Shown here one piece after another: positions 1 to 34,255 of a stretch of DNA of 42,168 bases. Made by a program: the position numbers and the translations under genes. Source of the DNA: Bacillus sp. ISL-55 (GTDB lineage: Bacteria > Bacillota > Bacilli > Bacillales > Cytobacillaceae); NCBI RefSeq assembly GCF_018613155.1, contig NZ_JAGGQU010000046.1, positions 1-42,168 of the forward strand. Reading direction: 5' to 3'. The notes below the pieces were generated by a model, which was not told the origin of the DNA, made no database searches, and saw only the letters and a program-made list of their open reading frames with translations. The stretch's first letter is position 1; each line of letters starts with the position of its first letter.

Positions 1-190
1 AACGTCGCAGAGAAGGAAAAAGGGTAAAAGGAAAGCCTCTGCATTACCCCAAAACTTCGCAGAGAAGGAAAAAAGGTAAAAGGAAACCTCCTGCATTACC
101 CCAAAACGTCGCAGAGAAGGAAAAAGGGTAAAAGGAAAGCTCCTGCATTACCCCAAAATATAGCTGGGAACGGAAAAAGAGAAAAACGAA
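1..190. repeat. Tandem array, 52-bp period, 3 copies plus a decayed fourth
   Basis: Three units start at 1, 53 and 105, each 52 bp, differing at a few positions. A degenerate fourth begins near 157. Copy 1 has GCAGAG and CTCTGC as inverted arms inside the unit. The unit is purine-rich on the + strand with a short pyrimidine end (ATTACCCC). The array reaches the left edge of the window, so the full copy number is unknown. It lies just 3' of the NERD-domain gene on the opposite strand. No reading frame runs through it. Confidence 0.9.
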
Positions 191-195
191 AAATA

Positions 196-1110
196 TCATG
201 TGTAATGTCGTGTATGCCTGTCTCCTACCGGTCTGAAATTTTTGTTTAACACTCTTCTAACTGCTTTGATAGGCAGTACTCCCTTACACCAATCAAAAAT
301 CAAAGCTGTAGTTAACTTCCTCTCCGGAAAAAGTAACCTTATTTCCTCGATACTTCGCATCACCGCGGAATCAATCTTTTCATGTGTTCCACAGTGGCTG
401 CAAACGAATTCCTTCCTTTCAATTTTATCCATGAGCTGATGACACTCTTTACACATAAGCCCTTTCGCCAATTGATCATATTCGTAACTTGGAATTCGCT
501 TATAAGGGGAGTCGGTTTGGTGCAATTGTAAAAGCTTCTCTGCAATTTTTTTATGAAGGTTTGTCAGTTTGGAATGTTTCTTGTTTAGATTTTTCATATA
601 ACGATTTAACTGGCTTGGAAAAATAATAGGTGCATCTTTAGGGGACTGGTATAGAGTGAATTCAGGGTTAATGAAGACAACGGAGGATCCAATCACAAGG
701 CGAAAGCCTAAGCTTTCAAATAGTTGTCGAAGCAGGGAGATACTCCGTTTTAATTGGAGCAGGGGATCTTTGATTTCACTTCCATTGATTTTTTTGAGGC
801 GTTCACCTTCGTAGTAGTAGTCACCTTCATAGTACTTTACCTCGAAAACTAGGATTGCATCTTGAATGATGATCAGAGAATCAATCTGGAAGGTTGTGCC
901 TCCTACTTCCAGGAGCAGGTCATTCAGTGTAAGATGTTCAATTTCAAGGCTTTCCATCCATATATCAAACTTGATTTCGCCTTCAAATCCTTTCCTGAGA
1001 TTAAAGTGCCTTTGTTTCTCTTTCTCGGTAAATTCCATCCGGGGTGCTAACCAGTCCAGCATTTTTAACTCATTTGATTTAACCCGTTCTTTTAAAATCA
1101 TACTCCACAT
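196..1110 (-). CDS. NERD (nuclease-related) domain protein with C-terminal zinc ribbon
   Basis: The predicted product is 304 residues. The N-terminal half matches the NERD domain pattern: a conserved Gly-rich entry (RKGFEGE), then a beta-strand core with DSLII and FEVKYYEGDYYYE, which carries the Asp...Glu-x-Lys pattern typical of restriction-like nuclease folds. The C-terminal third has two CxxC pairs (CKEC and CSHC, about 20 residues apart), a likely zinc ribbon. I chose the ATG at 1110 because a GGAGG lies 7 nt upstream; an in-frame ATG at 1134 lacks a site. No signal peptide or membrane helix is visible. NERD proteins are common in Bacillaceae and their substrate is generally unknown; a DNA-processing role is inference. 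Confidence 0.8.
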   Translation of the reverse strand: MWSMILKERVKSNELKMLDWLAPRMEFTEKEKQRHFNLRKGFEGEIKFDIWMESLEIEHLTLNDLLLEVGGTTFQIDSLIIIQDAILVFEVKYYEGDYYYEGERLKKINGSEIKDPLLQLKRSISLLRQLFESLGFRLVIGSSVVFINPEFTLYQSPKDAPIIFPSQLNRYMKNLNKKHSKLTNLHKKIAEKLLQLHQTDSPYKRIPSYEYDQLAKGLMCKECHQLMDKIERKEFVCSHCGTHEKIDSAVMRSIEEIRLLFPERKLTTALIFDWCKGVLPIKAVRRVLNKNFRPVGDRHTRHYT

Positions 1111-1228
1111 CCTTTCTCCTCCATTTTTAAGCAAAAGAGTTTAAATAGCCAGTGAACATTTTAAGGCAGTTTTTCTAATTAATCACCAGGACACTTATAT
1201 ACGATAAATGCCTGGTCCTTAGAATCAG

Positions 1229-1268
1229 CAAAATAAAACAGTGTGATCCGCCACGGATCACACTGATA
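1229..1268 (-). terminator. Intrinsic terminator of the M14 peptidase gene
   Basis: A perfect 12-bp stem (arms 1239-1250 and 1254-1265) has a 3-nt loop. Read on the minus strand it is followed by TTTTATTTT. It starts 10 nt past the stop codon of the peptidase gene. Confidence 0.9.
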
Positions 1269-1274
1269 AAAGAC

Positions 1275-2339
1275 TTATTCGTCTGCTTCTTCGCTCTGTC
1301 TGTTCGTCTGGTAAGGCAGGGTATCCCAGAAGCTGGTATCCATTGTTTCGATAGAGTCATCAGCAATCGCTCTTACTGTAGCATCCAAAGTGGTGATGGT
1401 CTGCTTGATCAGGTAGCCGTTGCTCTTCTGGCCTAAAGCATAAGGCTCGTAATAATGGTCGGACATGCCGCGCATTTCGAATAATAGAGTCGAGATATCA
1501 TAGCGGACAGCCGCACCGTTACGTCCAATGTTGGCACCTTCCCCGCCGCTATATTTGCCGATATGGCCCCAGCCAGTATCTTCAAGCGCATTGTATACGA
1601 CGGCACCAAGCTTCTTGGAGCCTTCCAGCACATCTGGCTTCACGTCAGGGTTCGTTGGGTAGAGAATCGATCCAGAAACAAGTTCACCTTCTGTTTCGCT
1701 GAGCGTGCCCTGGTGATGAAGGTCAATCATGTAATCGATTTCATATTTTTCAAAAACATTCTCGTGTAGTGCGCGTGCTTCTGGTTCCATCTCGCTAGTT
1801 GCCTTTGCGTGCTCACGATTTAAATCTACGTAGTTTGCGTTGTAGCGGGTAAGGTGGCGGTCGCCATCAGCGTGGTAATCTTCAAGTGAGAAGTCGACAT
1901 CGCCCATTGCTCCGTCCGCATTCAGCATCGGAATGACAAGGATGTTCACATTATCAAGTACATCACTAGTTTTACCAGTGCCTAAATGCTTGATGAATTC
2001 TAGTGCACCCTCAGTTGTCAGCTGCTCGTTTCCATGCTGCTGCGTTAAAAACAGGATGGTTGGATTATCCGGGTTGGAAATATACTTAGCCATATGAATA
2101 TCACGGCCTTTGACGGTCTGCCCGATCACTTCCAGCTCCATTGCCTCCTGTTTGGCATCCTGAGTCTTCAGGTAATCCACTAAACTTTCATATGTATGCA
2201 AAATCGATGTTTGTACGGATCCATTTCCGGCACCCGGTCCATTCCCGACAGCACCAGTAGGCAGGGCCACCGCAGTCACCGCGCCAAGAGCCATCATGCT
2301 TGATAAAGAAACCAATAGAACCTTCTTTTTCAAATTCAT
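1275..2339 (-). CDS. Secreted M14-family zinc carboxypeptidase
   Basis: The product is 354 residues. An N-terminal signal peptide is evident (MNLKKK, a hydrophobic stretch, then a small-residue Ala/Gly region), so it is exported. M14 metallopeptidase landmarks occur in order: the zinc-binding HGNE (HxxE), NADG (the family's NPDG position), VDLNRE (substrate-carboxylate binding Asn-Arg), DLHH (third zinc His), and FEMRG carrying the probable catalytic Glu. M14 enzymes remove C-terminal residues from peptides; in bacilli some cleave peptidoglycan stem peptides, but the substrate cannot be read from sequence. The ATG at 2339 is preferred over 2345 because AGGAGG sits 7 nt before it and only 1 nt before the other. 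It is monocistronic, with its own terminator. Confidence 0.9.
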   Translation of the reverse strand: MNLKKKVLLVSLSSMMALGAVTAVALPTGAVGNGPGAGNGSVQTSILHTYESLVDYLKTQDAKQEAMELEVIGQTVKGRDIHMAKYISNPDNPTILFLTQQHGNEQLTTEGALEFIKHLGTGKTSDVLDNVNILVIPMLNADGAMGDVDFSLEDYHADGDRHLTRYNANYVDLNREHAKATSEMEPEARALHENVFEKYEIDYMIDLHHQGTLSETEGELVSGSILYPTNPDVKPDVLEGSKKLGAVVYNALEDTGWGHIGKYSGGEGANIGRNGAAVRYDISTLLFEMRGMSDHYYEPYALGQKSNGYLIKQTITTLDATVRAIADDSIETMDTSFWDTLPYQTNRQSEEADE

Positions 2340-2507
2340 CGTCATTCCTCCTATAAACTAGATTCACTATACATGTTACTGAATTTTTAAAAAACATTTA
2401 ATAGAGTAAGATGCCTATTTATTAGACAAATTTCGAGCCTCGAAATAAGTAAAAATGATAGAGTTTTAAAAAGTGAAAACGGGGTTTGATAGGTAAAAAG
2501 TAAGTAG

Positions 2508-2537
2508 TTAGGCGAAATAAGCAGGAATCGCTATAAT
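2508..2537 (+). promoter_or_regulatory. Probable sigma-A promoter of the two-component operon
   Basis: A consensus -10 (TATAAT, 2532-2537) lies 35 nt before the response regulator start. The best -35 is weak (TTAGGC, 2508-2513, 18-nt spacer), which would fit an activator-dependent promoter. Confidence 0.4.
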
Positions 2538-2571
2538 AAACATAACTAGAACTGAGTAAGGAGACACAGTA

Positions 2572-3249
2572 ATGGCAGCAATCTTAATTGTCGATGATGA
2601 TCCTAATATCTTATTTTTGGTAAAAAGCCAGCTTCAGGGAGCAGGCCATGTTGTTTACCAGGCTCAGGATGGTACCGCGGCTTTGAAAATAGTGAATGAA
2701 ACTGTCATCGATTTGGCGGTAGTGGATGTGATGATGCCCGGAATGGACGGGTATGAGCTGACAAAGCAAATCCGGGAACTGCATGATATCCCGGTGATCA
2801 TGCTGACGGCGAAGGGGCAGATTGAGGACAAGGAGCAGGGATTCCTTTCAGGCACGGATGACTATATCGTAAAGCCATTCGACCCAAAGGAGCTGATTTT
2901 CAGGATCAACGCATTATTCCGGCGCTATCAGAAGCGGAGCAATCTGCTGATCACCATCGGCAATGTAACGATCAACCAGCAAAACTTCGAGGTCCAGGTG
3001 GGTGATAAGACACTGATTTTGCCTCTGAAGGAGTTTGAGCTTCTCTCTTATATGGCAGCGAAGCCGAATCAGGTGTTTACGAGGAATCAATTGATCGAGG
3101 AAATCTGGGGCCTTGATTTTTCAGGGGATGAACGTACGCTGAACGTCCATGTCAAAAGGCTTCGGGACCGGTTCTCCGAGCTGACCGAGGACTTCACGAT
3201 CAAGACGATCCGCGGCGTTGGTTATTTGGTCGAGGTACAAAGCAAATGA
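2572..3249 (+). CDS. OmpR/PhoB-family response regulator
   Basis: The product is 225 residues. The receiver domain (about 1-115) has the acidic pocket at D8-D10, the phosphoacceptor D52 in VVDVMMPGMDG, a switch Thr in MLTAKG and the conserved Lys in VKPFDPKEL. The C-terminal winged-helix DNA-binding domain (about 130-222) shows LPLKEFELL, ERTLNVHVKRLR and IRGVGYL. It should bind direct-repeat DNA as a dimer once phosphorylated by the kinase encoded next, whose start overlaps its stop by 4 nt. The start has a clear AAGGAG site. A candidate target is the repeat-bearing promoter at 4645-4676. The specific ortholog is not recognised. Confidence 0.95.
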   Translation: MAAILIVDDDPNILFLVKSQLQGAGHVVYQAQDGTAALKIVNETVIDLAVVDVMMPGMDGYELTKQIRELHDIPVIMLTAKGQIEDKEQGFLSGTDDYIVKPFDPKELIFRINALFRRYQKRSNLLITIGNVTINQQNFEVQVGDKTLILPLKEFELLSYMAAKPNQVFTRNQLIEEIWGLDFSGDERTLNVHVKRLRDRFSELTEDFTIKTIRGVGYLVEVQSK

Positions 3250-4637: not shown

Positions 4638-4644
4638 TATCCAG

Positions 4645-4706: not shown

Positions 4707-4723
4707 ATAGAGGGGGATTTTTA

Positions 4724-7571: not shown

Positions 7572-7656
7572 CATTTTCTGATCCACTTTTATTAATCCAT
7601 TATGGACTTTTGAATGATTTTTTATAAAACCCTGTTTTTAGAAAATTCCTAAATGC

Positions 7657-7685
7657 TTGCACTATCTTATCAATTCTGTTATTCT
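7657..7685 (+). promoter_or_regulatory. Sigma-A promoter of the cold-shock gene, with long 5' leader
   Basis: TTGCAC (7657-7662) and TATTCT (7680-7685) are separated by 17 nt. The start site near 7692 gives a leader of about 115 nt, typical of cold-shock genes whose leader RNA folds with temperature. Just before the AGGAGG, GTGTG and CACAC can form a 5-bp stem with a GATAT loop. Confidence 0.65.
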
Positions 7686-7806
7686 TAGGAAGAATTATTT
7701 TTGTTCGGTATGCAAGGAAAGAACATGCACTGCTTGATTCGCCTGGATATCACTGAGACAAGAATAGTAACAAATTGTGTGGATATCACACTAGGAGGCA
7801 ACAAAA

Positions 7807-8007
7807 ATGGAAAACGGTAAAGTAAAATGGTTTAACGCAGAAAAAGGTTTCGGATTCATCGAGCGCGAAGGTGGAGAAGACGTATTCGTACACTTCTCAG
7901 CTATCCAAGGCGAAGGCTTCAAGACTCTTGAAGAAGGCCAAGAAGTTTCTTTCGACGTTGAGCAAGGTGCTCGTGGACCACAAGCAGCTAACGTTACAAA
8001 ACTATAA
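7807..8007 (+). CDS. Cold-shock protein, CspA/CspB family
   Basis: The product is 66 residues, the standard size. It is a single OB-fold cold-shock domain with both RNA-binding motifs, KGFGFIE (RNP1) and VFVHF (RNP2), and the typical end [10 protein letters not shown]. It binds single-stranded RNA and DNA and acts as an RNA chaperone in the cytoplasm. Compared with the three B. subtilis paralogues it is mixed: the start [10 protein letters not shown] and the last residues resemble CspD, and the middle DVEQGARG resembles CspC, so I give no letter. AGGAGG lies 9 nt before the ATG. Codon choice looks strongly biased, as expected for a highly expressed gene. Confidence 0.97.
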
Positions 8008-8026
8008 TAACGGATTAGCCCATACA

Positions 8027-8060
8027 AACAAGCTCTGAGTCATCAGAGCTTGTTTTTTTA
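8027..8060 (+). terminator. Terminator of the cold-shock gene
   Basis: ACAAGCTCTGA (8028-8038) pairs with TCAGAGCTTGT (8043-8053) around a 4-nt loop. A run of T follows. Confidence 0.92.
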
Positions 8061-8411: not shown

Positions 8412-9647
8412 ATGGTAGAGTTTATAAAAGATTTGATCCTGCATTTTTCAATTATATTATCGCTCGGCTTCATGTATAACTTTCTATGGATGCAGAAGCG
8501 CCCGGTATATAAGAAACAAGTCTTTAAAATGGCCATTTTAGCAGCGCTATTAATGACAATGGCGTTGCCTGTAAGATTCCATGGTGGCATGGAATTCGAC
8601 TTGAAGCTGATTCCAGTCTTCATTGCCTTTTTTTATCTAAGCAGGACCGATAGCTTTTTGCTTGTGGCTGTCCTGTTGTTATTGCAGGGATTTGTGGGGA
8701 TGGACAAGCTCCCGGTCACGGCTGTCAATTATATTGTCATATTAATTTTATTTTTTTCAGTTGAAAAATTATATAAGAACACAACTGTTACCAGAAAAAT
8801 TGCGCTCGGCCTTTTTGTGTACGGCATGATCACAACGACAAGACTTGCGGCAATGATCAACGCCGGCAAAGCGGAGGACTACCTTTATTTGCTTGTATTT
8901 TCACTCGTCTCTTTCGCTGCGCTCTCGGTAACTATTTATATTATTGAAATCACCAACCTGCAGCTAAAACTGATGCATGAGCTTCACAAAGCTGAGAAAT
9001 TTTCAGCAATCAGCCAGCTCGCAGCCTCGGTTGCCCATGAAATCCGCAATCCGATGACCACGATCAGAGGCTTCATGCAGGTGCTCCAGGGAGAACGTAA
9101 TTTGAATGATAACCAGAATCTCTTCATCACAATATCCCTTCAGGAGCTGGATCGCACCCAGACCATCATTGATAATTTCCTCTCGCTGGCAAAACCAAAT
9201 ACAGGGAGCATGGCGAAAATTGATTTGAGTGAACTTTTAACAGAAACGATTGATTTCATGAGATCCTATTCTCATCTCGCCAATACGGAATTGGTGGAGG
9301 CGATCGATAAGAATCTTTGCATCAAAGGTGATGCTCATGAAATCAGACAGGTTTTTATCAATATTTTAAAAAATGGAATTGAAGCTATGCCTTCCGGCGG
9401 AAGCATCTACATCATCGCCAAGGTCGACAAGAATAACGTAAGAATCCAGTTCCGGGATGAAGGCGTCGGGATGAACAAAGAGCAGCTCAACAGACTTGGC
9501 CATCCTTATTACTCCACGAAGGAAAAAGGAACAGGCCTCGGCATGATGATTTCCTTTGATATTATTCAAAGAATGAAAGGCAGAATCAATGTAGATAGTG
9601 CAGAAGGAAAAGGCACCACATTCACGATTCTCCTGCCATGTGAGTAA
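8412..9647 (+). CDS. Multi-helix membrane sensor histidine kinase
   Basis: The product is 411 residues. The N-terminal 180 residues form about six hydrophobic helices with short loops and no large external domain, so it probably senses within or through the membrane. The kinase core follows: H209 in ASVAHEIRNPMTTIRGF, the N box NILKNGIEAMPSGG, G1 DEGVGM and G2 GTGLGM. The layout (polytopic sensor, NPMT-type H-box, short HATPase) is that of the KinB/NtrB-like kinases which in Bacillus often feed the sporulation phosphorelay. No response regulator is adjacent, so it is an orphan, which supports that idea but does not prove it. GGGGG precedes the ATG. Confidence 0.88.
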   Translation: MVEFIKDLILHFSIILSLGFMYNFLWMQKRPVYKKQVFKMAILAALLMTMALPVRFHGGMEFDLKLIPVFIAFFYLSRTDSFLLVAVLLLLQGFVGMDKLPVTAVNYIVILILFFSVEKLYKNTTVTRKIALGLFVYGMITTTRLAAMINAGKAEDYLYLLVFSLVSFAALSVTIYIIEITNLQLKLMHELHKAEKFSAISQLAASVAHEIRNPMTTIRGFMQVLQGERNLNDNQNLFITISLQELDRTQTIIDNFLSLAKPNTGSMAKIDLSELLTETIDFMRSYSHLANTELVEAIDKNLCIKGDAHEIRQVFINILKNGIEAMPSGGSIYIIAKVDKNNVRIQFRDEGVGMNKEQLNRLGHPYYSTKEKGTGLGMMISFDIIQRMKGRINVDSAEGKGTTFTILLPCE

Positions 9648-9672
9648 TGGAATACTTTTCTGATAGGCGGAG

Positions 9673-10036
9673 GGCTCTATCGGCCAAACGGAAGGCGAAC
9701 GCGTGGGAAAATGTCCGATAGAGGGGCTCTATCGGCCAAACAGAAGGCGAACGCGCGGGAAAATGTCCGATAGAGGGGCTCTATCGGCCAAACAGAAGGC
9801 GAACGCGCGGAAAAGTGTCCGATAGAAGGGCTCTATCGGCCAAACGGAAGGTGAACGCGGGGAAAAGTGTCCGATAGAAAGGCTCTATCGGCCAAACAGA
9901 AGACGAACGCGGTGGAAAGTGTCCGATAGAAAGGCTCTATCGGCCAAACAGAAGACGAACGCGCGAGAAAATGTCCGATAGAAGGGCTCTATCGGCCAAA
10001 CGGAAGGCTTACGCGTGGAAAAGTGTCCGATAGAGA
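9673..10036. repeat. Tandem array, 52-bp period, 7 copies, hairpin at each junction
   Basis: Units start at 9673, 9725, 9777, 9829, 9881, 9933 and 9985, every interval exactly 52 bp although the units differ by substitutions. Each unit opens with CTATCGG and closes with CCGATAG. At unit junctions CCGATAGAG-GGG-CTCTATCGG makes a 9-bp stem with a 3-nt loop in the best copies. The interior is GC-rich with A-tracts. It lies between the sensor kinase gene and its probable terminator at 10079. Confidence 0.95.
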
Positions 10037-10137: not shown

Positions 10138-10475
10138 ATTTGTCGGAGTTAAGCAGTCGCCTTCGCTTTTCTGGTTGTCTAGCTGCGGCTCCTAACTCCT
10201 CGAGACGCTTGTCTAGTGTTGCCTCCTAGAAACGCCGAAACTTCAACTCCGCCGGCAGAAGCAAAAAGCGCTTCTTTGTCGGAGTCTCCAGTTTCTTCGT
10301 TTCTGGACAGTCGGCTATACATTTCAATTTCGGTCCTGCCAATGAAGTCAAAGAGCGACTTCACTGTCAGGCACTCCGAGGCACACGATGTGCTAGACCC
10401 GCCAGCCACAGGACGTGGCGTTATAGGCGGGCAGCGCTTGTCGGAGTTAAGCAGTCGCCTCCGCTTTTCTAGTTT
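10138..10475. repeat. Composite interspersed repeat made of several hairpins
   Basis: A 33-bp sequence (10139-10171) recurs almost exactly at 10440-10472, framing the element. A left-end motif (about 10174-10210, GTCTAGCTGCGGCTCC) is loosely the inverse of the right end. Between them lie a long imperfect hairpin (about 10229-10306), GAAGTC/GACTTC (about 10345-10363), GCACA/TGTGC (about 10381-10393) and CCCGCC/GGCGGG around CCAC/GTGG (about 10398-10431). Similar hairpin-rich elements ending in CGCCTCCGCTTTT-like sequence are, to my knowledge, dispersed in many Bacillaceae genomes. No protein is encoded. It ends about 100 nt upstream of mtnK. Confidence 0.75.
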
Positions 10476-10513
10476 GGAAGTATTTTTTAGTGCGTCGAAA
10501 TACAATCTTAAGC

Positions 10514-10570: not shown

Positions 10571-11791
10571 ATGGCTGATTTTAATACTTACTTTTTAATG
10601 AATGCTGATGAGGTCATTTTATATGTAAAAGAAAAGACCGCTTTCTTTGATAAAGATGCTGAATTGAGCTGCACTGAAATTGGGGATGGCAATTTGAATT
10701 ATGTCTTCCGGGTGATTGATGAGCAATCGGGAAAGTCATTGATTGTTAAACAGGCTGGTGATACTGCGAGGATTTCCGATGAGTTCAAGCTTTCCACAAA
10801 CCGGATCAGGATTGAATCCAATGTGCTGAAGCTTCAAGGTGAACTGGCACCAGGTTTGGTCCCGGATGTCTATCTGTTTGATGATGTGATGAATTGCTGC
10901 GTGATGGAGGATCTTTCTGATCATACTATCCTCCGTACAGCGCTTAATGAAGGCCGTATTTTTCCAAAGCTTGCCGATGACATGACGACTTTCATGGTCA
11001 ATACGCTTCTGCTCACTTCGGATGTGGTCATGGAGCATAAAGCGAAAAAAGCGCTTGTCCAGGATTATATCAACCCTGAATTGTGCGAAATTTCGGAGGA
11101 CCTTGTATACTCTGAACCTTTCACTGACCATAACAGCCGAAATGACTTGTTCCCACCCAACAAAGAGTGGATTGAAGAGAATATATACGGAGATGATCAA
11201 CTCCGCTTTGAGGCTGCGAAGCTTAAGTTTGCTTTCATGACCAATGCTCAGGCGCTTGTGCATGGGGATTTGCATTCGGGTTCTGTTTTCGTAAAAGATG
11301 ATTCGACAAAAGTGATCGATCCTGAATTCGCGTTTTACGGGCCGATGGGTTATGACGTTGGCAACGTGGTTGCGAACCTGATGTTTGCATGGTCACGCGC
11401 ACATGTAATTAATGCTGATGAGAAGTATGTTTCCTGGCTTGAGGAGACGATTGAAGATACGGTAAACCTTTTTGCTGAAAAATTCCTGGCAAGCTGGAAT
11501 GAAAATGTCACGGAGGTCATGGCAAAGGAGCAGGGCTTCGACCGCTGGTACTTGGATTCTGTTCTTAAGGATACGGCATCGGTAACCGGTATGGAGATGA
11601 TCCGCCGTATTGCCGGCCTGGCGAAGGTCAAGGATTTGACGACAATTGCAGACGAAAAGCAGCGTGTAACAGCAGAGAGAATCTGCCTGTCTGCAGCGAA
11701 GCAGTTCATCTTGGAATCAGGCGGCTTCAAAACGGGCGAACAATTTTTAAAAGTATTAAAGGATTCAGCTTCAAGCCATAATATGCGATAA
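10571..11791 (+). CDS. mtnK: S-methyl-5-thioribose kinase
   Basis: The product is 406 residues, against about 397 in B. subtilis MtnK. It phosphorylates 5-methylthioribose at C1 using ATP, in the cytosol, as part of salvage of the sulfur compound left after polyamine synthesis. Kinase-fold markers fit the family: the glycine-rich loop [11 protein letters not shown] (36-46), the catalytic loop [10 protein letters not shown] (231-240), and the metal-binding [13 protein letters not shown] (250-262). GGAAAGGGGAAG precedes the ATG. It is followed 46 nt later by the class II aldolase gene. The usual partner mtnA (isomerase) is not in this window. Confidence 0.95.
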
Positions 11792-12885: not shown

Positions 12886-14610
12886 TTATGGATTGAACGG
12901 ATTGTCGTGGTTATGCGGATCCATAGGATTATGGTTTCTGTTTTGGTTCGGATTGTTCAAGTTTGGACCAGTTCCAGGGTTCTGGTTCGGATTGTTCAGG
13001 TTTGGACCAGTTCCAGGGTTCTGGTTCAGGTTATTCAAGTTTGGCGGTGTTGCCGGATTCGGGTTGGTAGGGCTGTTTTTTTTCATTTTCTGCTGTTGAA
13101 CCGCCGCTTGGTCAATGCTGGTTTTTTCGATTTTTTCATCGAACTTGGTCAGGTATTTCGATGCGAAGTTCTTGCCGCCCAGACCGAATGCCAAGCCGAA
13201 TGCGAGCGCCAGCCCTCCAAGTGTCAGGATGAACGCCGCGTTCACGATTGCTGGTGCTACTCCAAGCTGGTCAAGTGCCATGAAGACCGCAATGGTGATG
13301 ATCGCATATTTTGCGACAGTTGCCAGCACATTTGAAGAGTCCCCTTGCAGGATGCTGCTGAGTACTTTCTTTGCAAGGCCGCCGAGCCATAGGCCGACAC
13401 CAAGGATAACAATCGCTGCAATCACATGAGGCAGATAAGCAATGACGCCTCGTGCCAGGTCGACGAAGAAATCAAGGTTTACTACATTCAATGCTTCAGC
13501 TACAAATAGCAGGACGACGATGACCTGGACGATATAGCCGACAATTTCCGATAAGCTTAATGAGTTAGGACGCTTTGCTGCGCCACCTACAATTACTCCT
13601 TTAAAATAGGAGTCGAAACCAATTCTTCTTAATAAATCAGCAGTGAATTTCTTCAGCCATTTACCAAGCCATAGGCCGATCATGACAAGAATGATGGCCA
13701 CGACGATATTTGGAATCATCGTCAGGATGTCATTCAACATTGCGATGGCTGGTTCAGATATTCCATCGACATCAAGTCGCTCGAGAGCGGCGATGACAGT
13801 CGGGATTAATATCAAGACGAAAGCAACAGTGCCGATCACGCGTGAAAGGCTAGTGCCTTCAAATAAGCGGGAAAGCCCGAAACGCTGGACTAAGGTTTCA
13901 GTGCCAATGCTCTGTAAAAAGTTCGTCAGGATATCACGAACAATTTTAGCAACAAAGTAACCGACTAAAAGAATCAGCGCTGCTGCAAAAAGTTTAGGAA
14001 TGAAGGAAAGGATCCCTGCGATCATGTTTTCGAAAGGCTCTGAAACGCCATGCAGGTTCAGTGCGGACAATACGGCCGGCAATGCCATCAGCAAGACAAG
14101 ATAGAAAACGATGTTCGCGACTTTATCAACTGCACTCGTCGTCTGAGAATTGTCGTCCGTAAGCTTGTACTTGCTTAATTTTTCATGGACACCTAGCGTC
14201 TTGCCGCCCTTCTGGATCAGGAATTTCAAGCCTGAAGCAATCAGCCAGGCAAATAATAGAATCAATCCTGCTTTCAGGATATTAGGAATCGCTGCGGCAA
14301 TCGTAGAGAACATTCCGACGAGCGGCTCCGTTAAAACATATAAATCTAAAATATTCAGGAACATGATGAAGACAAATACTAGAATTAAAATATAGACAAT
14401 TTTGCTGATGATTTTTTCAGCTGAGTACTTTTTATTGTTCACATTCGAAAAAAGCTTGTTATCAAGACTTGTCTTTTGAAGCCCCTTGTAAACTGCTTTT
14501 TCTATCAATTTTGCAACAAGCCATCCGACGAGCAGGACTGCAAGCGCAATCAGCACATTTGGGAGTTTGCCAAGAATGCTGTCCCAGCCATTATAAAAAT
14601 TATTGTTCAA
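12886..14610 (-). CDS. MscS-like / conserved TM-helix channel protein with repetitive tail
   Basis: The product is about 574 residues. The N-terminal 490 residues hold roughly a dozen hydrophobic helices in four or five repeated blocks, each a pair of helices with the pattern PN(V/I)..A...L..GW..AK (the conserved TM-helix repeat of CmpX-like proteins). The last block ends with LALAFGLAFGLGGKNFASKYL, the MscS-type pore-lining segment. The last 75 residues are low-complexity Asn/Pro/Gly with near-perfect 13-residue repeats (PNLNNPNQNPGTG). Such proteins are annotated as mechanosensitive channels; conductance here is unproven. I place the start at TTG 14610, with AAGGAG 8 nt upstream; the GTG at 14619 overlaps that site. 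Confidence 0.82.
   Translation of the reverse strand: MNNNFYNGWDSILGKLPNVLIALAVLLVGWLVAKLIEKAVYKGLQKTSLDNKLFSNVNNKKYSAEKIISKIVYILILVFVFIMFLNILDLYVLTEPLVGMFSTIAAAIPNILKAGLILLFAWLIASGLKFLIQKGGKTLGVHEKLSKYKLTDDNSQTTSAVDKVANIVFYLVLLMALPAVLSALNLHGVSEPFENMIAGILSFIPKLFAAALILLVGYFVAKIVRDILTNFLQSIGTETLVQRFGLSRLFEGTSLSRVIGTVAFVLILIPTVIAALERLDVDGISEPAIAMLNDILTMIPNIVVAIILVMIGLWLGKWLKKFTADLLRRIGFDSYFKGVIVGGAAKRPNSLSLSEIVGYIVQVIVVLLFVAEALNVVNLDFFVDLARGVIAYLPHVIAAIVILGVGLWLGGLAKKVLSSILQGDSSNVLATVAKYAIITIAVFMALDQLGVAPAIVNAAFILTLGGLALAFGLAFGLGGKNFASKYLTKFDEKIEKTSIDQAAVQQQKMKKNSPTNPNPATPPNLNNLNQNPGTGPNLNNPNQNPGTGPNLNNPNQNRNHNPMDPHNHDNPFNP
12945..13050. repeat. 39-bp coding repeats in the channel gene tail
   Basis: Two near-identical 39-bp units (starting 12945 and 12984) and a diverged third encode 13-residue Asn/Pro/Gly repeats at the C terminus of the minus-strand channel gene. 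The length is a multiple of three, so copy-number change would keep frame. Confidence 0.85.
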
Positions 14611-14899
14611 ACCTCTCACTCCTTATTTAAATTGGACTTTCAAAGCGAGCTGCGGATGTGTATGGATAAGAACTAGAACTAGTGCAGCATCAACCTGTGA
14701 AAAAAGTACTTAGTTAGCTAGCAAGCATACTTTAATCTACCCAAATATTGTCTGTGTAAACAAAGCAGAGAATCTTGTCTTATGAGGAAGAGATGTTTTG
14801 GAAAATCGATATTAAAAGAGAGAGTAAAGGGATTGTTGCTGGTATTTTAATGATGTCTTCAATTATTAGCGATTGATTTGAGAGGGGCATTTAATAAAA

Positions 14900-19761: not shown

Positions 19762-19792
19762 GGGATTTAGCGGAAAATTACATATCGAAATG

Positions 19793-19948
19793 AACAGGTG
19801 TCTTTTTAAACAAGACTTAATAGGGAAGTTGGTGAAAATCCAACGCGGTCCCGCCACTGTAAATGGGAGCAAGCTGCAACATGCCACTGTACAAATGTAT
19901 GGGAAGGCGCAGCGAGCATTGACCATGAGCCAGGAGACCTGCCTGTCC
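19793..19948 (+). ncRNA. Cobalamin riboswitch aptamer
   Basis: Conserved segments occur in order: ACAGGTG (19795-19801), AATAGGGAAGTTGGTGAAA (about 19819-19837), AACGCGGTCCCGCCACTGTAA with the B12 box GCCACTG at 19853-19859, a second GCCACTG (19883), GGGAAGGC, and ATGAGCCAGGAGACCTGCC (about 19925-19943). ACAGG and CCTGT close the outer stem. It binds adenosylcobalamin or related corrinoids and should shut off the btuF-btuC-btuD/cbiZ operon when the vitamin is plentiful. Confidence 0.95.
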
Positions 19949-19974
19949 ATTGCACCAGCAAACCTACGAGGATA

Positions 19975-24109: not shown

Positions 24110-24812
24110 ATGAGGCAGGAATCGCTGAAAAGGTCTCTATAGAAAGATTCTATAAGCCCGATTGAGGTTAAAACCCACGAAAAGGACCTATAGAAAGATT
24201 CTATAAGCCCGAATGAGGTTAAAATTCTCGAAAAGGTCCTATAGAAAAGTTCTATAAGCCCAAAAGAGGTTGAAATCCACGAAAAGGTCCTATAGAAAAG
24301 TTCTATAAGCCCAAAAGAGGTTAAAATTCTCTAAAAGGTCCTATAGAAAAATTCTATAAGCCCAAAAGAGGTTGAAATCCACGAAAAGGTCCTATAGAAA
24401 AGTTCTATAAGCCCAAAGAGGTTAAAATTCTCGAAAAGGACCTATAGAAAAGTTCTATAAGCCCGAATGAGGTAAAAATCCACGAAAAGGTCCTATAGAA
24501 AGAATCTATAAGCCCAAAAGAGGTTAAAACCCACGAAAAGGTCCTATAGAAAAGTTCTATAAGCCCGAATGAGGTGAAAACCCACAGAAAGGTCCTATAG
24601 AAAAGTTCTATAAGCCCGAATGAGGTTAAAACCCACGAAAAGGTCTTATAGAAAGATTCTATAAGACCAAATGAGGTTAAAACCCACGAAAAGGTCCTAT
24701 AGAAAAGTTCTATAAGCCCGAATGAGGTTGAAACCCTCAAAAAGGTCCTATAGAAAAATTCTATAAGCCCGAATGAGGTTGAAACCCTCAGAAACGTTCT
24801 ATAGAAGCACTT
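24110..24812. repeat. Tandem array, 51-bp period, 13 copies, hairpin in each unit
   Basis: The landmark TATAAG recurs at 24151, 24202, 24253, 24304, 24355, 24406, 24456, 24507, 24558, 24609, 24660, 24711 and 24762: eleven intervals of 51 bp and one of 50. Each unit has TATAGAA-n3-TTCTATA, a 7-bp stem with a 3-nt loop, then a spacer with GAGGTTAAAA. Copies differ by substitutions but almost never by length. It fills the gap between the convergent VOC and MFS genes; both ends decay. It accounts for most of the 845 bp without a gene here. Confidence 0.95.
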
Positions 24813-24850: not shown

Positions 24851-26128
24851 CTAAGCAGCTTCCTTCACTGGTTTATTTGCAAGTAATGATGCAGTGATGC
24901 CTAAAATCGGAAGGATGATGGTCATCAGGAGAATTTCCTCATAACCGCCGAAATAATCGTAGGCGAGTCCGAATGGCAATGGCCCTAACGCTGAACCGAG
25001 CACAGTGACGGTCATTGCTGAACCTTTGATACTGCCAAGCGATTTTCGTCCGAAAAAGCTCGGCCAGACGTAGTTTAGTGTTATTCGCTCAAATCCTCCG
25101 CTGATTCCCCAGAATACCCCGAAAGCGATTGCGATGGCGGGTTTGTCAGCTGCCAGCAAAATGAGAATGAAAAGGATCTCCCCTGCGAAAATGCCTGCAA
25201 GCACATACTGCACTTTTACCCGGTCGAGGAGAGGGCCTGCTATCAATGTGACGGGGAAACCAATCAAAGCCATCAAGCTTAATACAAGAGCGGCTATTCC
25301 TGGTGAAATCCCATTCGACTTAAAAATAGATATTAGGTGAAACGTCAGTCCGGTGTTGACGAGAGACGGAATACCCACGCAAAAAAGCAAAAGCCAGTAT
25401 GCGCGTGTTTTGCTCGCTTCCTGGACCGTCCAGTTCACCTCTTCAATAGGCTTGGTGATTCTGTTAGATTCAGTCGTATTATTTATCCAATCAGGCTTGA
25501 TTCCATCAGGATGCTCACCGATGTCCTCAGGCTTGTTCCTGATCAAAAAATAAGCCAATGGCACGAAGACCACGAGAAGCAGGATTCCCCAAAGCATCCA
25601 TGAGAAGCTCCAGCCCCAGTTGGCAACAAGCCAGGCATTCAATGGGGGAAATACAGCAGAGCTGGCAAAGCCGCCGATTGCCATGAAGCTCATCGCTTTT
25701 CCGCGTTTCGTTATGAACCACTGAGGGACCAAGGTATTTGGGATCAACGTCATTGAACCCTGACCGAGAATCCTGATCAGGAAAAAGCCGATGAACAGCA
25801 TCGCTGTGTTAACAACCATACTGTTCCAGAAGCTGGCCAGCGCCAGCCCAATGCCAACAATAACTGACATTTTTCGTTGTCCCCATTTATCAACGAAGCG
25901 ACCGACAAAGAACATGCAAATCCCTGCAGCAAGTGTTGCAAGTGAATAAACCGCCGATACATGCGAACGGCTCCAGCCGAAATCTTTTATGTAAGAGTCT
26001 ATAAAGACAGATACCGAGTATGTTTGCCCTGGACCTGAAAAAAACACGCCAAGACCGGCAATAAATACGATAACCCAGCCGTAATAAAAATTAGTTTTGA
26101 ATGGTGCTGATAGTCCTGATGTCTTCAT
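24851..26128 (-). CDS. MFS transporter, monocarboxylate / oxalate-formate antiporter type
   Basis: The product is 425 residues with twelve helices. The N terminus NFYYGWVIVFIAGLGVFFSGPGQTYSVSVF matches the OFA/MCT branch (Y-G-W at helix 1, then G-P-x-x-T-x-x-x-S-V-F). The MFS loop motif between helices 2 and 3 reads GRFVDKWGQRK. The central cytoplasmic loop has RNKPEDIGEHPDG. Family members move monocarboxylates or exchange dicarboxylates; the substrate cannot be read. GGGAGG lies 8 nt before the ATG. It is monocistronic; no terminator is visible before the 51-bp array. Confidence 0.9.
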   Translation of the reverse strand: MKTSGLSAPFKTNFYYGWVIVFIAGLGVFFSGPGQTYSVSVFIDSYIKDFGWSRSHVSAVYSLATLAAGICMFFVGRFVDKWGQRKMSVIVGIGLALASFWNSMVVNTAMLFIGFFLIRILGQGSMTLIPNTLVPQWFITKRGKAMSFMAIGGFASSAVFPPLNAWLVANWGWSFSWMLWGILLLVVFVPLAYFLIRNKPEDIGEHPDGIKPDWINNTTESNRITKPIEEVNWTVQEASKTRAYWLLLFCVGIPSLVNTGLTFHLISIFKSNGISPGIAALVLSLMALIGFPVTLIAGPLLDRVKVQYVLAGIFAGEILFILILLAADKPAIAIAFGVFWGISGGFERITLNYVWPSFFGRKSLGSIKGSAMTVTVLGSALGPLPFGLAYDYFGGYEEILLMTIILPILGITASLLANKPVKEAA

Positions 26129-28433: not shown

Positions 28434-28446
28434 GGTTTCTAATCCG

Positions 28447-28581
28447 ATATGGCTTTGAATGGCCTTTTAAAAGCAGTTTCACTCATGCGCAGTTTTGTAA
28501 ATCAGTTCATATGGCAGTTGATTGAATGGCCATTTAAAAACAGCTTCACTCATTCACAGAATTATAAATCAGTTCATATGG
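28447..28581. repeat. Imperfect direct duplication, about 62-67 bp
   Basis: ATATGG recurs at 28447, 28509 and 28576. The first two units share GAATGGCC, TTTAAAA, TTCACTCAT and AAATCAGTTC. The third is only a start. Nothing else is visible in the 420 bp between usp and ddl except an AT-rich stretch with a TGGTAAAAT extended -10 near 28755-28763, probably the ddl promoter. Confidence 0.75.
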
Positions 28582-29882: not shown

Positions 29883-29895
29883 CCGATAAATCAAC

Positions 29896-29929
29896 CAGGG
29901 AGACACGGCGGCGGCCGTGTTCTCTTTTC
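29896..29929 (+). terminator. Possible weak terminator or attenuator between ddl and murF
   Basis: GAGACACGGC and GCCGTGTTCTC arms pair with one bulge around a GGCG loop, followed by only TTTT. It may reduce murF transcription or protect the ddl 3' end. Confidence 0.5.
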
Positions 29930-29945
29930 ATGGGAGGAAATAAAA

Positions 29946-31325
29946 ATGATTCAAAAACCATTATCAGAGATCGCCCAAATGGCTGGTGCCTTGAATGATG
30001 TCAGCAAATTTGCTGATGTAATCGTCAAGGGCGTTTCAATCGACACTCGTAAAATAGAAGCAGGAAATCTGTTTGTTCCTTTTAAAGGTGCAAGGACAGA
30101 TGGACATAATTTCGTCGCTGATGTCATTCAGAATGGCGGAGCTTCAGCAGCACTATGGCAAAAAGATGTTCCGAATCCTCCGGAGGATTTGCCGATCATC
30201 GTCGTGGAAGACACCACCATTGCCTTACAGGAGCTGGCAAGAGTCTACCGCAACTCGCTGGATATCAAGGTTGTCGGTATTACAGGCAGCAACGGGAAAA
30301 CGACAACGAAAGATATGACAGCAAATCTGCTGGCGCAAAAATACAAAGTGCAAAAGACCGAAGGGAACTTCAATAACCACCTGGGTCTTCCGCTGACGCT
30401 TCTTCGCCTGAGTGAAGATACAGAGGTTGCCGTGCTTGAAATGGGCATGAGCAGCAAAGGTGAGATTGAATTTTTAACAAAAATGGGCCGGCCAGATGCT
30501 GTGATCATCACGAATATCGGTGAATCTCATCTACTTGACCTCGGTTCAAGGGAAGCGATTGCTGATGCAAAGCTTGAAATCATCGATGGCCTTCAGGAGA
30601 ACGGACGGATCATATTCCATGGAGACGAGCCGCTTTTGCAGGAAAGGCTGAAGGATTATACGGGGAATGGTGAACTAAAAACCTTCGGGGCGAGCCGAGA
30701 AAATGATCTTTATCCGATCAATATTGAGTCGATCGAAAATGGTAACAAATTCAGGACTAACGTTGGTGATGAAACCTTCTATCTGCCGGTACTCGGCAAC
30801 CATAATATCCTGAATGCGCTTGCGGCGATGCTTGCAGCAGAGTTCCTGGGCGTTCCTTTTGCAAAAATGAATGAAGGCTTCGCTAGCTTGAAGCTGACGA
30901 ATATGAGAATGGAGCTCTCCGAAGGCGCTAATGGTGAAAAAATTATCAATGATGCCTACAATGCGAGTCCGACATCCATGAAGGCTGCAATCGACCTTGT
31001 TGCCGGCCTTTCAGGCTACAATCGTAAAATCCTTGTGCTCGGTGACATGCTTGAGCTGGGGCCCCTTGAGGAAGAGTATCACTACAAGCTTGGCGCTTCC
31101 ATCGATGCGGAAAAAATTGATTATGTATTCACCTTTGGGAAGTTGAGCGAAGGCATCACCAAAGGGGCAAAAGAAGTTCTTGGCGACGACAGAGCATTTT
31201 CCTTCCGGGATAAGCAACAGCTGAGCAATGAACTGAAGAAATACGTAACAGATGAAACAATCGTGCTTGTAAAAGGTTCACGTGGCATGGCGCTCGAAGA
31301 AGTCGTCCACGCATTGCAGCAATAA
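29946..31325 (+). CDS. murF: UDP-MurNAc-tripeptide:D-Ala-D-Ala ligase
   Basis: The product is 459 residues. It adds D-Ala-D-Ala to UDP-N-acetylmuramoyl-tripeptide, the last cytoplasmic step for the UDP-linked precursor. Mur-ligase markers: the P-loop GITGSNGKTTTKD (about 114-126), NFNNHLGLPLTLL, the metal/carbamate region EMGMSSKGEIEFLT, NAYNASPTSMKAAI (here DAYNASPTSM) and LGDMLELG. It ends with GSRGMALE. GGGAGG lies 7-8 nt before the ATG. It forms the conserved ddl-murF pair. Confidence 0.97.
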   Translation: MIQKPLSEIAQMAGALNDVSKFADVIVKGVSIDTRKIEAGNLFVPFKGARTDGHNFVADVIQNGGASAALWQKDVPNPPEDLPIIVVEDTTIALQELARVYRNSLDIKVVGITGSNGKTTTKDMTANLLAQKYKVQKTEGNFNNHLGLPLTLLRLSEDTEVAVLEMGMSSKGEIEFLTKMGRPDAVIITNIGESHLLDLGSREAIADAKLEIIDGLQENGRIIFHGDEPLLQERLKDYTGNGELKTFGASRENDLYPINIESIENGNKFRTNVGDETFYLPVLGNHNILNALAAMLAAEFLGVPFAKMNEGFASLKLTNMRMELSEGANGEKIINDAYNASPTSMKAAIDLVAGLSGYNRKILVLGDMLELGPLEEEYHYKLGASIDAEKIDYVFTFGKLSEGITKGAKEVLGDDRAFSFRDKQQLSNELKKYVTDETIVLVKGSRGMALEEVVHALQQ

Positions 31326-31333
31326 AAGTCCGC

Positions 31334-31368
31334 CAACAAGATGTCCTGCAAGCAAGGGCATCTTGTTG
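31334..31368 (+). other. Hairpin after murF without a T tract
   Basis: CAACAAGATG (31334-31343) pairs with CATCTTGTTG (31359-31368), with CCT/AGG inside. No T run follows, so it is more likely an RNA-stability hairpin than a full terminator. Confidence 0.5.
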
Positions 31369-31472
31369 CAATTAACGATATTATGACAAAAGGCATGATC
31401 AAGGAATTTCCGGGTTAAATGTTCTAAAATGGGGAAAGATTAAATACGAGAAAAACTAATGGGTGATGGGTT

Positions 31473-32183
31473 ATGATAGGTTGTCTGCTAATACATGGTT
31501 TTACCGGGTCGCCGTTCGAAGTGGAACCACTTGCCCAGTCGCTGAAAGAAAGAACCGATTGGAAAATAGTTGTTCCTACCCTTCCTGGCCATGGCGATGA
31601 GCTCAGATTGAAGGGAATCAAGCATGATGAGTGGCTTAACCATGCCGAAAACGAGCTGAAGGCGTTATTGAAAGAGTGTGACACCGTGTATGTTGTCGGA
31701 TTTTCGATGGGCGGGCTGATTGCCAGCTATCTCGCCTCGAATTATCGGGTTGACAAGCTTGTCCTTCTCAGTGCGGCTGCTTACTATGTGAATCCGAAAC
31801 AGCTTGCTTCTGACATCAAGGAAATGATGAGGGACACGTTAAAAGGGAATCTTAAAGAAAACGAGTTATTCAGGCGTTATACACGGAAAATCAAAGAAAC
31901 ACCCATGACCGCTACCTTGCAGTTTCGCAGGCTTGTGAGCAAAATCAAGCCTATTCTCAACGATGTGAAGGTGCCTACATTGATCGCGCAAGGCGAGAGT
32001 GACGGCATCGTCCCCCCGAAAAGCGCCCATTACTTATATGAAAATATTGGCGCTGAAGAAAAACGGCTGATTTTTTATAAGAACTCCAAACATCTGATCT
32101 GTCACTGTGATGAAAAAGAACACTTATTTGACGAGGTATATGATTTTTTGACCTCTAAACCGAGAGAAGAAATCAGAAGCTGA
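31473..32183 (+). CDS. Alpha/beta hydrolase, carboxylesterase type
   Basis: The product is 236 residues. The fold starts at once with GCLLIHGFTGSPFEVEPLA (oxyanion HGFTG). The nucleophile is Ser in VGFSMGG, the acid is probably Asp in GESDGIVP and the His is in NSKHLICH, completing the triad. It resembles the cytosolic Est30-type carboxylesterases of bacilli and monoacylglycerol lipases; the natural ester is unknown. It lies between murF and cshA, where B. subtilis has no gene. The binding site before the ATG is weak (GGGTGATGGG). Confidence 0.9.
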   Translation: MIGCLLIHGFTGSPFEVEPLAQSLKERTDWKIVVPTLPGHGDELRLKGIKHDEWLNHAENELKALLKECDTVYVVGFSMGGLIASYLASNYRVDKLVLLSAAAYYVNPKQLASDIKEMMRDTLKGNLKENELFRRYTRKIKETPMTATLQFRRLVSKIKPILNDVKVPTLIAQGESDGIVPPKSAHYLYENIGAEEKRLIFYKNSKHLICHCDEKEHLFDEVYDFLTSKPREEIRS

Positions 32184-32199
32184 AGCAATTCCTCAAAAA

Positions 32200-32228
32200 T
32201 TGCTTTTCCTTCCTAAAGATGGTATCAT
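32200..32228 (+). promoter_or_regulatory. Promoter of a short terminated leader before cshA
   Basis: TTGCTT (32200-32205) and TATCAT (32223-32228) are exactly 17 nt apart, with TGG before the -10. Confidence 0.55.
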
Positions 32229-32234
32229 GAATAT

Positions 32235-32297
32235 TGAGTGTCTAACTGAGAAAATCCTTTAAGCGGACATACTCCCGTGTTGGAGATGTCTTTTTTT
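32235..32297 (+). ncRNA. Candidate terminated leader RNA, about 60 nt
   Basis: From the promoter at 32200-32228, transcription would start near 32235 and meet a terminator at 32266-32297 (GACAT-A-CTCC with GGAGATGTC, then seven T). No frame with a ribosome site fits inside. It could be an attenuator ahead of cshA or a small RNA. Confidence 0.35.
32266..32297 (+). terminator. Intrinsic terminator upstream of cshA
   Basis: GACAT and CTCC (with one bulged A between) pair with GGAGATGTC around a CGTGTT loop. Seven T follow. Confidence 0.8.
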
Positions 32298-32510
32298 GCT
32301 AATATTTCAGGTTCTGTGCTTCAGCGTGTTGTAACTGCTGATTCAGCCCTGCTTAAAACACAAGGTACTAACACCTATTTTGCCGTAAAGGTACAATAAA
32401 CTAACCAGAATCAGAAATGGTTTGGATCCTTAAACAGCCACTTAAAATAAACGAAGTGTCGGTTGTAACCGGTGCGGGATAAATGTAAACATAAAGGAGA
32501 ATGAGCAAAG

Positions 32511-33986
32511 TTGACAATGTTTCAAGACATGGGCATTAGCCCCGCAACATTAAAAGCTGTAAAGAATATGGGTTTTGAGGAAGCAACTCCAATTCAAGCA
32601 GAAACGATTCCAATCAGCCTTGAAAATAAAGACGTGATTGGCCAGGCGCAGACAGGTACTGGTAAGACTGCTGCTTTTGGTATTCCTCTAGTGGAAAAAA
32701 TTAAGAAAGAAAACCATAACATCCAGGGAATCATCATCGCGCCAACTCGTGAATTGGCAATCCAGGTTTCCGAGGAATTATACAAAATCGGTGCTGGCAA
32801 GAGATTGGGCGTTCTTGCAATCTACGGTGGCCAGGATATCAATCGCCAGATCCGTGCATTGAAAAAAGGGCCTCATATCATCGTTGGAACGCCAGGACGA
32901 CTTCTTGACCACATCAACAGAAAGACGATCCGTCTTGATACGGTCGAAACTGTAATCCTTGACGAAGCAGATGAAATGCTGAACATGGGCTTCATCGAAG
33001 ATATCGAAGCAATCCTTGCAAAAATCCCTAGCGAACGCCAGACATTATTGTTCTCGGCAACAATGCCAGGGCCGATCCGCAAGATCGCTGAGCGCTTCAT
33101 GAAGGATCCGGAAGTTGTTCGGGTCAAAGCGAAGGAAATGACAGTTCCTTTGATCGAGCAATACTATGTTGAAGTACAGGAGAAGAACAAGTTCGATGTT
33201 CTTACACGACTTCTTGATATCCAATCTCCAGAATTAGCAATCATCTTCGGACGCACGAAGCGCCGTGTTGATGAGCTTGCTGAAGCCTTGAACCTGCGCG
33301 GCTATACTGCTGAAGGAATCCACGGAGACCTTACGCAGGCGAAGCGTATGTCTGTTTTAAGAAAGTTCAAGGAAGGTTCAATCGACGTTCTAGTTGCAAC
33401 AGACGTGGCAGCTCGTGGACTTGATATTTCCGGTGTAACGCACGTATACAACTTCGACATCCCGCAGGACCCTGAAAGCTATGTACACCGTATCGGTCGT
33501 ACGGGCCGTGCAGGTAAAGAGGGTATGGCGATCACGTTTGTCACACAGAGAGAGACTTCTTACCTTCATGTAGTGGAAAAAACGACAAAACGCCGCATGG
33601 AAAAAATGACTGCTCCAACCTTGGACCAAGCACTTGAAGGTCAGCAAAGAGCAGTTGTTGATAAGATTACACAAACAATCGAGTCAAATAACCTTCAATA
33701 CTACCGCCAGGCTGCAGATGAGCTATTGAAAAATCATGATGCTCAAACAGTCGTTGCTTCTGTATTGAAAATGCTGACTAAAGAACCTGATACAACTCCT
33801 GTTAAGCTTACTGAGGAAAAGCCTCTTCCAAACAGAAACAAAAAGCCTCAAGGAGACCGCAGAAGATACGATAACAGAGGCAGCGATGGACGCAATAAAA
33901 AGCCTTACAAGCCACGCTCTGGAACAAAACGCACAGGTGGCGGCGGCAGAGAAGGCGGCAGCTTCAAATCAAGATCACCACGCTAA
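32511..33986 (+). CDS. cshA: DEAD-box RNA helicase CshA
   Basis: The product is 491 residues. It unwinds RNA duplexes with ATP and in Bacillus joins the RNA degradosome, ribosome assembly and cold growth. Motifs in order: Q motif [17 protein letters not shown], Ia [63 protein letters not shown]. The tail (about 420-491) is basic and Arg/Gly-rich ([16 protein letters not shown]), for RNA binding. TTG at 32511 is chosen because MTMFQDM aligns with the B. subtilis start; AAAGGAG lies 11 nt upstream. The 5' leader of about 115 nt or more is long. Confidence 0.96.
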
Positions 33987-33997
33987 AATAAAACACC

Positions 33998-34034
33998 AAA
34001 CCCCCCGTTTTTTAACTAAACCGGGGGTTTTTTA
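33998..34034 (+). terminator. Terminator of cshA
   Basis: AAACCCCC and GGGGGTTT arms, with an A/T-rich loop partly pairing (TTT/AAA). TTTTTT follows the second arm. Confidence 0.85.
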
Positions 34035-34132
34035 TTTGAAAATGTGTACCTTTTAACTGAATGATCTTATAAATTAAGTTGATTTATCGGAAATATCCTG
34101 CTTAACCACCTATTGCATGAACCTCTTGCTGA

Positions 34133-34255
34133 GATTTCGACCACATTTCAAGATATATCGACCACATTTTAAAATATATCGACCACTTTCAGCGTTTTAT
34201 CGACCACTTTCCAAGATAATTCAACCACATTCCACATCATTTCGACCACCCTCAT
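34133..34255. repeat. Tandem array, 21-bp period, 6 copies
   Basis: The core CGACCAC (one copy CAACCAC) occurs at 34138, 34159, 34180, 34201, 34222 and 34243, all exactly 21 bp apart. The spacers are AT-rich (ATTTCAAGATATAT and variants) and diverge more than the core. It lies between the cshA terminator and uvsE and explains most of the 340-bp gap. It could bind a protein on one face of the helix. Confidence 0.93.

Follow-up and report, generated by a model that had tools for sequence, protein, structure and literature searches.

Why do intergenic tandem repeats of otherwise different sequence keep to so few unit sizes? The question is raised by a 42,168-nucleotide stretch of DNA from Bacillus sp. 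ISL-55 (the window; contig C41 of the 69 contigs of a 4.52-Mb draft genome, coded G000), in which Tandem Repeats Finder (TRF) confirmed four arrays with periods of 52, 52, 51 and 21 bp. All four fall outside identified genes, as an earlier note on this sequence had stated; a 139-residue open reading frame (ORF) that overlaps part of one of them, the array at 24127, is without support. The same note had regarded the arrays as unrelated in sequence, had placed their periods near whole helical turns and had known of no described system of this kind. However, both sizes, including those of the sister species Bacillus selenatarsenatis, were described by Subirana and Messeguer in 2021 (PMC8161180), so the central observation was already in print. 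The sizes being known, what is new here is a common box geometry, a slower divergence of the core and a polarity relative to replication. We tentatively read the ~52-bp arrays (class I, multiples of this size included), with slightly less than even confidence, as DNA-level, replication-polar satellites similar to the repetitive extragenic palindromic (REP) sequences and bacterial interspersed mosaic elements (BIMEs), their boxes being predicted half-sites of a dimeric protein. The ~21-bp arrays (class II) are a second class: direct-repeat sites without clear polarity.

Arrays were called with TRF in 1.64 Mb from three Mesobacillus genomes, namely 442 kb of G000 including the window, 800 kb of G028, a complete genome, and 400 kb of G057; 200 kb each of G030 and G048, from other genera, brought the total to 2.04 Mb for motif counts. 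The closest named relative, judged by the S-methyl-5-thioribose kinase gene mtnK, is Mesobacillus selenatarsenatis (94% identity). A TRF score of at least 100 defines a strong array, coding status and gene strands were set by an ORF rule and not by annotation, and 113 arrays fell into 35 clusters at 70% circular identity.

The raw sequences of the three class I arrays in the window do differ, but their layout is common. The core is composed, in order, of an A-run, a box, a dyad-symmetric stretch of 19–20 bp and a matching box, the pairs being TGTC/GACA, GGTC/GCCC and GGGT/ACCC. The consensus of the 1–191 array reads A-run, GGGT, N20 and ACCC (span 28) and then a spacer, with the purine-rich strand on plus; that of the 24127 array reads GAAAA, GGTC, N19 and GCCC (span 27) before its spacer, and the unit of the 9671 array contains GAAAA or GAAAG, TGTC, N19, GCCA (span 27) and a spacer, GACA being the second box in most relatives. 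Inverted repeats, which had been claimed for the units of three arrays, exceed 200 shuffles in the 9671 (p 0.01) and 24127 (p 0.02) arrays, whereas the 1–191 unit taken alone does not (p 0.135). Across the sample, 67 of the 113 arrays have an inverted repeat above shuffles at p of at most 0.02, and the inner arm pairs match more often than expected at eight of the nine positions (0.82 against 0.45 for positions 8 and 20), the innermost pair being below it.

The spacing of the boxes is nearly invariant. Of the 54 arrays whose consensus holds both TGTC and GACA (among 113 arrays; 16 of the 35 clusters), 53 have a span of 27 bp from the first box to the second, as do five of the six published consensus repeats that hold both (27 examined). 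In the 2.04 Mb, TGTC-N19-GACA was counted 196 times, compared with 11–45 for each of the other spans between 15 and 44; for GACA-N25-TGTC the count is 233, compared with 13–38 for each alternative span between 25 and 44. Of 144 pairs of neighbouring TGTC-N19-GACA frames closer than 400 bp, 129 have a step of 52 bp; the remaining steps are 50, 51 and 53 bp, once each, and otherwise 104–105, 156 or 208 bp. Arrays of one family have a common core and a locus-specific spacer, which is largely identical across the units of one array. In the 39 arrays with at least four units, without indels and with a consensus holding the boxes, divergence within the array is 0.06–0.08 for boxes, arms and A-run and 0.137 for spacers, so that the core diverges at about half the rate. 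A box span of 27–28 bp and a period of 51–52 bp thus stay fixed while other sequence changes, and a DNA-level site at fixed spacing is supported.

Class I arrays are, in addition, oriented. The GC skew of G028 switches between 4.46 and 4.47 Mb and near 2.2 Mb, and polarity by homology was computed with switch points at 4.40 and 2.20 Mb, no locus lying between 4.40 and 4.47 Mb; where both strands matched one place, the better-scoring strand was taken. Among the matches listed (the best 11 of 21 candidates for the 9671 type, the best 9 of 13 for the 24127 type and the best 40 of 46 for one further family), the loci oriented with replication are 11/11 for the 9671 type, 8/9 for the 24127 type, 12/12 for the 1–191 type, 32/33 for the L162 type and, weakly, 20/29 for the L158 type, the most palindromic family yet the weakest in polarity. 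After deduplication, 70 of 80 listed loci run with replication (p 3e-12 against 0.5), 48 of 56 when a score of at least 100 bits is required. Three families grouped post hoc reach 55 of 56, more than the 82.5% share of ORFs that lie on the leading strand (p 3e-4). The number of listed arrays in G028 does not rise toward the terminus (17, 13, 17, 18 and 15 by fifths).

An unbiased sample gave the same orientation by base composition. The counts take in only arrays flanked by ORFs on both sides within the stretch and leave out those with a weak purine excess (9 of 55 in class I, 15 of 43 in class II) and two class II arrays with a weak GC skew. Of 46 class I arrays, 42 have the purine-rich strand as the leading strand, and one of the four exceptions (L214, period 54) resembles a coding-type repeat. 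In gaps between co-directional genes the purine strand agrees with replication in 21 of 23 cases and with gene direction in 17 of 23; in the four gaps whose genes run against replication, it always agrees with replication; and in convergent or divergent gaps, which have no gene direction, it is the leading strand in 21 of 23. The polarity of class I therefore tracks replication better than transcription. In the own genome, 10 of 10 loci on contigs C11 and C25 are oriented with replication. Regarding other genera, all five 9671-type loci of G048 agree with the nearest skew sample and at most three of four do so in G030, where one locus lies between skew samples of opposite sign; searches with three further class I families gave no match in G048 or G030 and, for one of them, none in G057.

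Together, these results make a replication-polar element with fixed box geometry, acting at the DNA level, more likely than a function as RNA or a general helical rule. The box half-sites would bind a putative dimeric DNA-binding protein, which might load at 52-bp steps, and the arrays may serve chromosome organisation or segregation. Several observations weigh against this reading. Regarding the layout, 59 of the 113 arrays lack the combination of TGTC and GACA, an inverted repeat at p of at most 0.02 is present in just 19 of the 35 clusters, one family often carries a mismatched arm pair, and the second box of the window's own 9671 array is GCCA in 7/7 units. Regarding polarity, 70 of 80 is not above the share of ORFs on the leading strand (1062/1287; p 0.15). 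A mild purine excess on the leading strand is also found in gaps without arrays, and the 21 of 23 in co-directional gaps does not exceed background gaps (p 0.37), while that in convergent or divergent gaps compares with 43 of 65 array-free gaps at p 0.03 only. Finally, no binding protein or phenotype is on record for the arrays.

A different origin, possible although somewhat unlikely, would make the arrays selfish or neutral by-products of replication: a hairpin with its neighbouring bases on the lagging-strand template would be copied or slipped into tandem, and the unit size would reflect the copying step instead of a host function. The polarity and the common core with a locus-specific spacer fit this account, as does the history of the gap between the histidine kinase gene and mtnK. 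The gap was compared between the window and eight relatives: the window and four of these relatives have arrays of one family, ranging from ~1.3 to 7 units, and three relatives have none; the remaining one, M. subterraneus DSM 13966, has another 52-bp array upstream of mtnK, with a different upstream flank. Higher-order units of 104 and 156 bp (two and three times 52) are found in 15 of 47 class I arrays with a score of at least 100 (G000 and G028 stretches), and suggest that two or three units may be copied together during expansion. However, within arrays the spacer is less conserved than boxes, arms and A-run, and span and period are exact across species. The 9671 and 24127 arrays, the two searched, have no DNA match in phage or plasmid records. 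A Y1 transposase of the REP-associated tyrosine transposase (RAYT) type fits poorly as the driver: Y1 matches are present in 51 of 61 genomes, with three matches in G000, but there is none among 10 candidates in G003, which bears both array types.

That the arrays act as RNA, in the form of 3' untranslated-region hairpins or small RNAs, is improbable. Hairpins are present in many units, one study reports transcripts of 52-nt repeats in B. coagulans (PMC8625621), and the 9671 array sits between the stop codon of the histidine kinase gene and a probable terminator. The 3' untranslated-region model prompted by this last arrangement failed across the sample: at 64 facing 3' ends, the terminator precedes the array in 25, is found only after it in 6, and is in neither position in 33. 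The sense strand is not preferred, the folding energy being lower on it in 17 of 27 cases, the polarity follows replication, and no Rfam match at gathering scores was found over the window arrays and seven loci.

The earlier note had proposed a tally of intergenic periods against helical phase as a check of its whole-turn reading. Among the non-coding arrays with a TRF score of at least 100 in the three Mesobacillus genomes, 77 of 81 fall into two size classes and their multiples (50–54, 102–106 or 152–158 bp; 19–22 or 39–43 bp), with 29/30 in G000, 34/36 in G028 and 14/15 in G057; the four exceptions have periods of 45, 62, 67 and 120 bp. G030 and G048 have just three and one strong non-coding arrays (39, 39 and 54 bp; 52 bp), and below a score of 100 G028 also has single arrays of 32 and 34 bp. 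The tally is thus very far from flat, but its peaks (~21, 40–42, 51–53, 104 and 156 bp) are the two unit sizes and their multiples, not all multiples of 10.4–10.5 bp. Only sizes of 2, 4, 5, 10 and 15 turns are frequent, and those of 3, 6, 7 and 8 turns are nearly absent among the 81 strong arrays (one of 62 bp, none near 31, 73, 83 or 94), which leaves two numbers as the basis of the helical reading. The 67-bp repeat at 28455, which the note had left out, does not fit it. Its further proposal, that phased units add up on one side, fails in its strict form, due to the 51-bp family: the period is 51 in 13 of the 14 members listed, and such a unit slips by 36–51 degrees at 10.4–10.5 bp per turn, which exceeds one turn over 13 units. 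A general rule that confines intergenic tandem repeats to whole helical turns, through bending or one-face phasing, is not supported and is highly improbable: arithmetic speaks for it, with 52/5 = 10.40 and, for the class II motif TCGACCAC, a mean step of 20.7/2 = 10.35 bp per turn, but periods of 45, 67 and 120 bp occur and the 51-bp family goes out of phase.

The class II arrays are built differently. The unit of the 34137 array is TCGACCAC(A/T)TT followed by a degenerate A+T-rich linker; it is non-coding and has a conserved short motif, in agreement with the published constant-length repeats of 20–21 nt. The nearest same-strand spacings of exact TCGACCAC are 19–21, 41–42, 60–61 and 120 bp, with none at 31, 52 or 73. 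In 32 chains of the motif the steps are 79 of 21 bp, 18 of 20 bp and one of 19 bp, together with 22 double steps of 40–42 bp; the chains were picked by the motif, which conditions the conservation of its 8-mer and not that of positions 10–11. Phase compensation between 20- and 21-bp steps was considered and dropped, some arrays having steps of 21 only and others alternating, with none clear by eye. Polarity is not significant in this class, either by purine strand (15/26) or by homology in G028 (10/14).

Class I is enriched in convergent gaps (17 of 55 arrays, against 76 of 676 gaps, p 2e-4), and class II less so (11/43, p 0.01); the depletion of both classes in divergent gaps is weak (12/98 against 144/676, p 0.04). 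These gap counts, like those of terminators above, take in arrays that have an ORF on either side within the stretch. Queries from the window gave, in the own genome, 13 matches at 11 loci for 24110, 19 at 9 for 1–191, 23 at 19 for 9671 and 12 at 12 for 34130. Among 61 genomes of the family, the own one included, 11 contain matches to the 9671 type, 6 to the 24127 type and 10 to the 34137 type. The longest run of a 52-bp family seen, by far, is G028:C1:2750163-2753845 (~3.7 kb). In Neobacillus piezotolerans (L089, 11361–12554) a 23-copy 52-bp array lies directly downstream of mtnK; its core differs and its TGTC-to-GACA span is still 27. The contig of L081, from a record titled Chryseobacterium sp. 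ISL-80, has an mtnK 88% identical to that of the window in the same gene neighbourhood, and the title looks wrong.

The features of the window are collected in Table 1. The period-39 repeat noted at 12945 had been taken for coding, and its position within a channel ORF bears this out. Contig C29 opens (18–253, L010) with the same array type as the window at 93% identity; since both contigs start in one array type, the assembly may have broken inside a single array. A dispersed repeat with CTGCGGCTCCTAACTCCTCGAGACGCTTG adjoins arrays in the window (10140–10490), in L078 (9620–9890) and in L077 (16074–16174), where it forms a 34-bp tandem of three copies. Rfam matches elsewhere in the window are a cspA thermoregulator (7613–8057) and a cobalamin riboswitch (19779–19960).

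Table 1. Arrays, other repeats and neighbouring genes in the window
Feature	Positions	Strand	Remarks
Class I array	1..191	+	Period 52, 3.7 copies, cut by contig end (TRF)
Class I array	9671..10034	+	Period 52, 7.0 copies (TRF)
Class I array	24127..24806	+	Period 51, 13.3 copies (TRF); convergent gap
Class II array	34137..34249	+	Period 21, ~5 copies (TRF: 34137-34231/34249, 4.5-5.4 copies)
67-bp duplication	28455..28581		1.9 copies, non-coding, ~6.4 turns; outside size classes (TRF)
Coding repeat, period 39 bp	12940..13044	-	Within 577-aa mechanosensitive channel ORF 12886-14619 (-)
NERD-domain protein gene	196..1134	-	Ends next to 1-191 array
Histidine kinase gene	8412..9647	+	Upstream of 9671 array
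mtnK, S-methyl-5-thioribose kinase	10571..11791	+	Downstream of 9671 array
Major facilitator superfamily (MFS) transporter gene	24851..26128	-	Converges on 24127 array
RNA helicase gene cshA	32511..33986	+	Upstream of 34137 array
UV endonuclease gene uvsE	34313..35293	+	Downstream of 34137 array

Among known systems, the closest are the published Bacillus repeats, which are constant in size, variable in sequence, non-coding and present as several families per genome (PMC8161180). That survey covered 176 Bacillus genomes and found 4029 tandem repeats, of which 781 measure 20–21 nt and 1886 measure 51–53 nt; B. selenatarsenatis has 82 (49 of 51–53 nt and 30 of 20–21 nt), in common with B. boroniphilus and B. 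subterraneus. It already remarked that 20–21 nt make two helical turns and that a repeat often contains a characteristic short sequence together with its reverse, reported no sequence conservation across species, likened the constant and variable regions to clustered regularly interspaced short palindromic repeats (CRISPR), and suggested nucleoid proteins or small RNAs. The window has the non-coding unit of 51–53 nt and the several families of one size per genome; the four-repeat limit of the published search is exceeded by the 9671 (7.0) and 24127 (13.3) arrays, the 1–191 array having 3.7 copies at the contig end. The survey (PMC8161180) gives neither the 27-bp box span nor the replication polarity, and no report of either was found in the literature searched, whose coverage does not extend to a 2020 J Bacteriol paper. 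The constant satellite size was published as an enigma lacking both sequence conservation and a known function. The common box geometry offers a concrete probe for a binding protein, and the polarity suggests looking for the role in replication, segregation or fork-coupled copying, away from mRNA control. As in CRISPR, a palindromic constant part alternates with a variable part at constant length, but here the variable part changes little from unit to unit within an array (array structure was compared; cas genes were not searched for).

REP/BIME elements, with their RAYT transposases, comprise many intergenic palindromic copies, tandem arrangements and several families per genome, and the REP hairpin has a GTAG foot on its 5' side. 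Class I arrays are likewise palindromic intergenic repeats in many copies, but an A-run replaces the GTAG-like foot (A at positions -3 to -1 in 13, 14 and 11 of 16 clusters) and the period is rigid at 52 bp.

The orientation of class I arrays from origin to terminus recalls the polar motifs of FtsK and SpoIIIE, the FtsK-orienting polar sequences (KOPS) and SpoIIIE recognition sequences (SRS, GAGAAGGG), which are oriented in the same way. The arrays were rejected as SRS themselves, since exact GAGAAGGG is absent from 19,333 bp of arrays (2.0 expected), while with one mismatch it occurs 53 times against 27 expected, about twofold above shuffles. A bolder extension, which we consider doubtful, would make the 52-bp satellites a replication-polar address system of some Firmicutes, in which oligomeric proteins would sit on dyads every five turns and a hundred or more direction-marked arrays would serve segregation or nucleoid folding. 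If so, the dyads TGTC-N19-GACA, GGTC-N19-GCCC or GGGT-N20-ACCC would be bound, and the system would resemble the polar KOPS motifs, built as satellites with freely drifting spacers.

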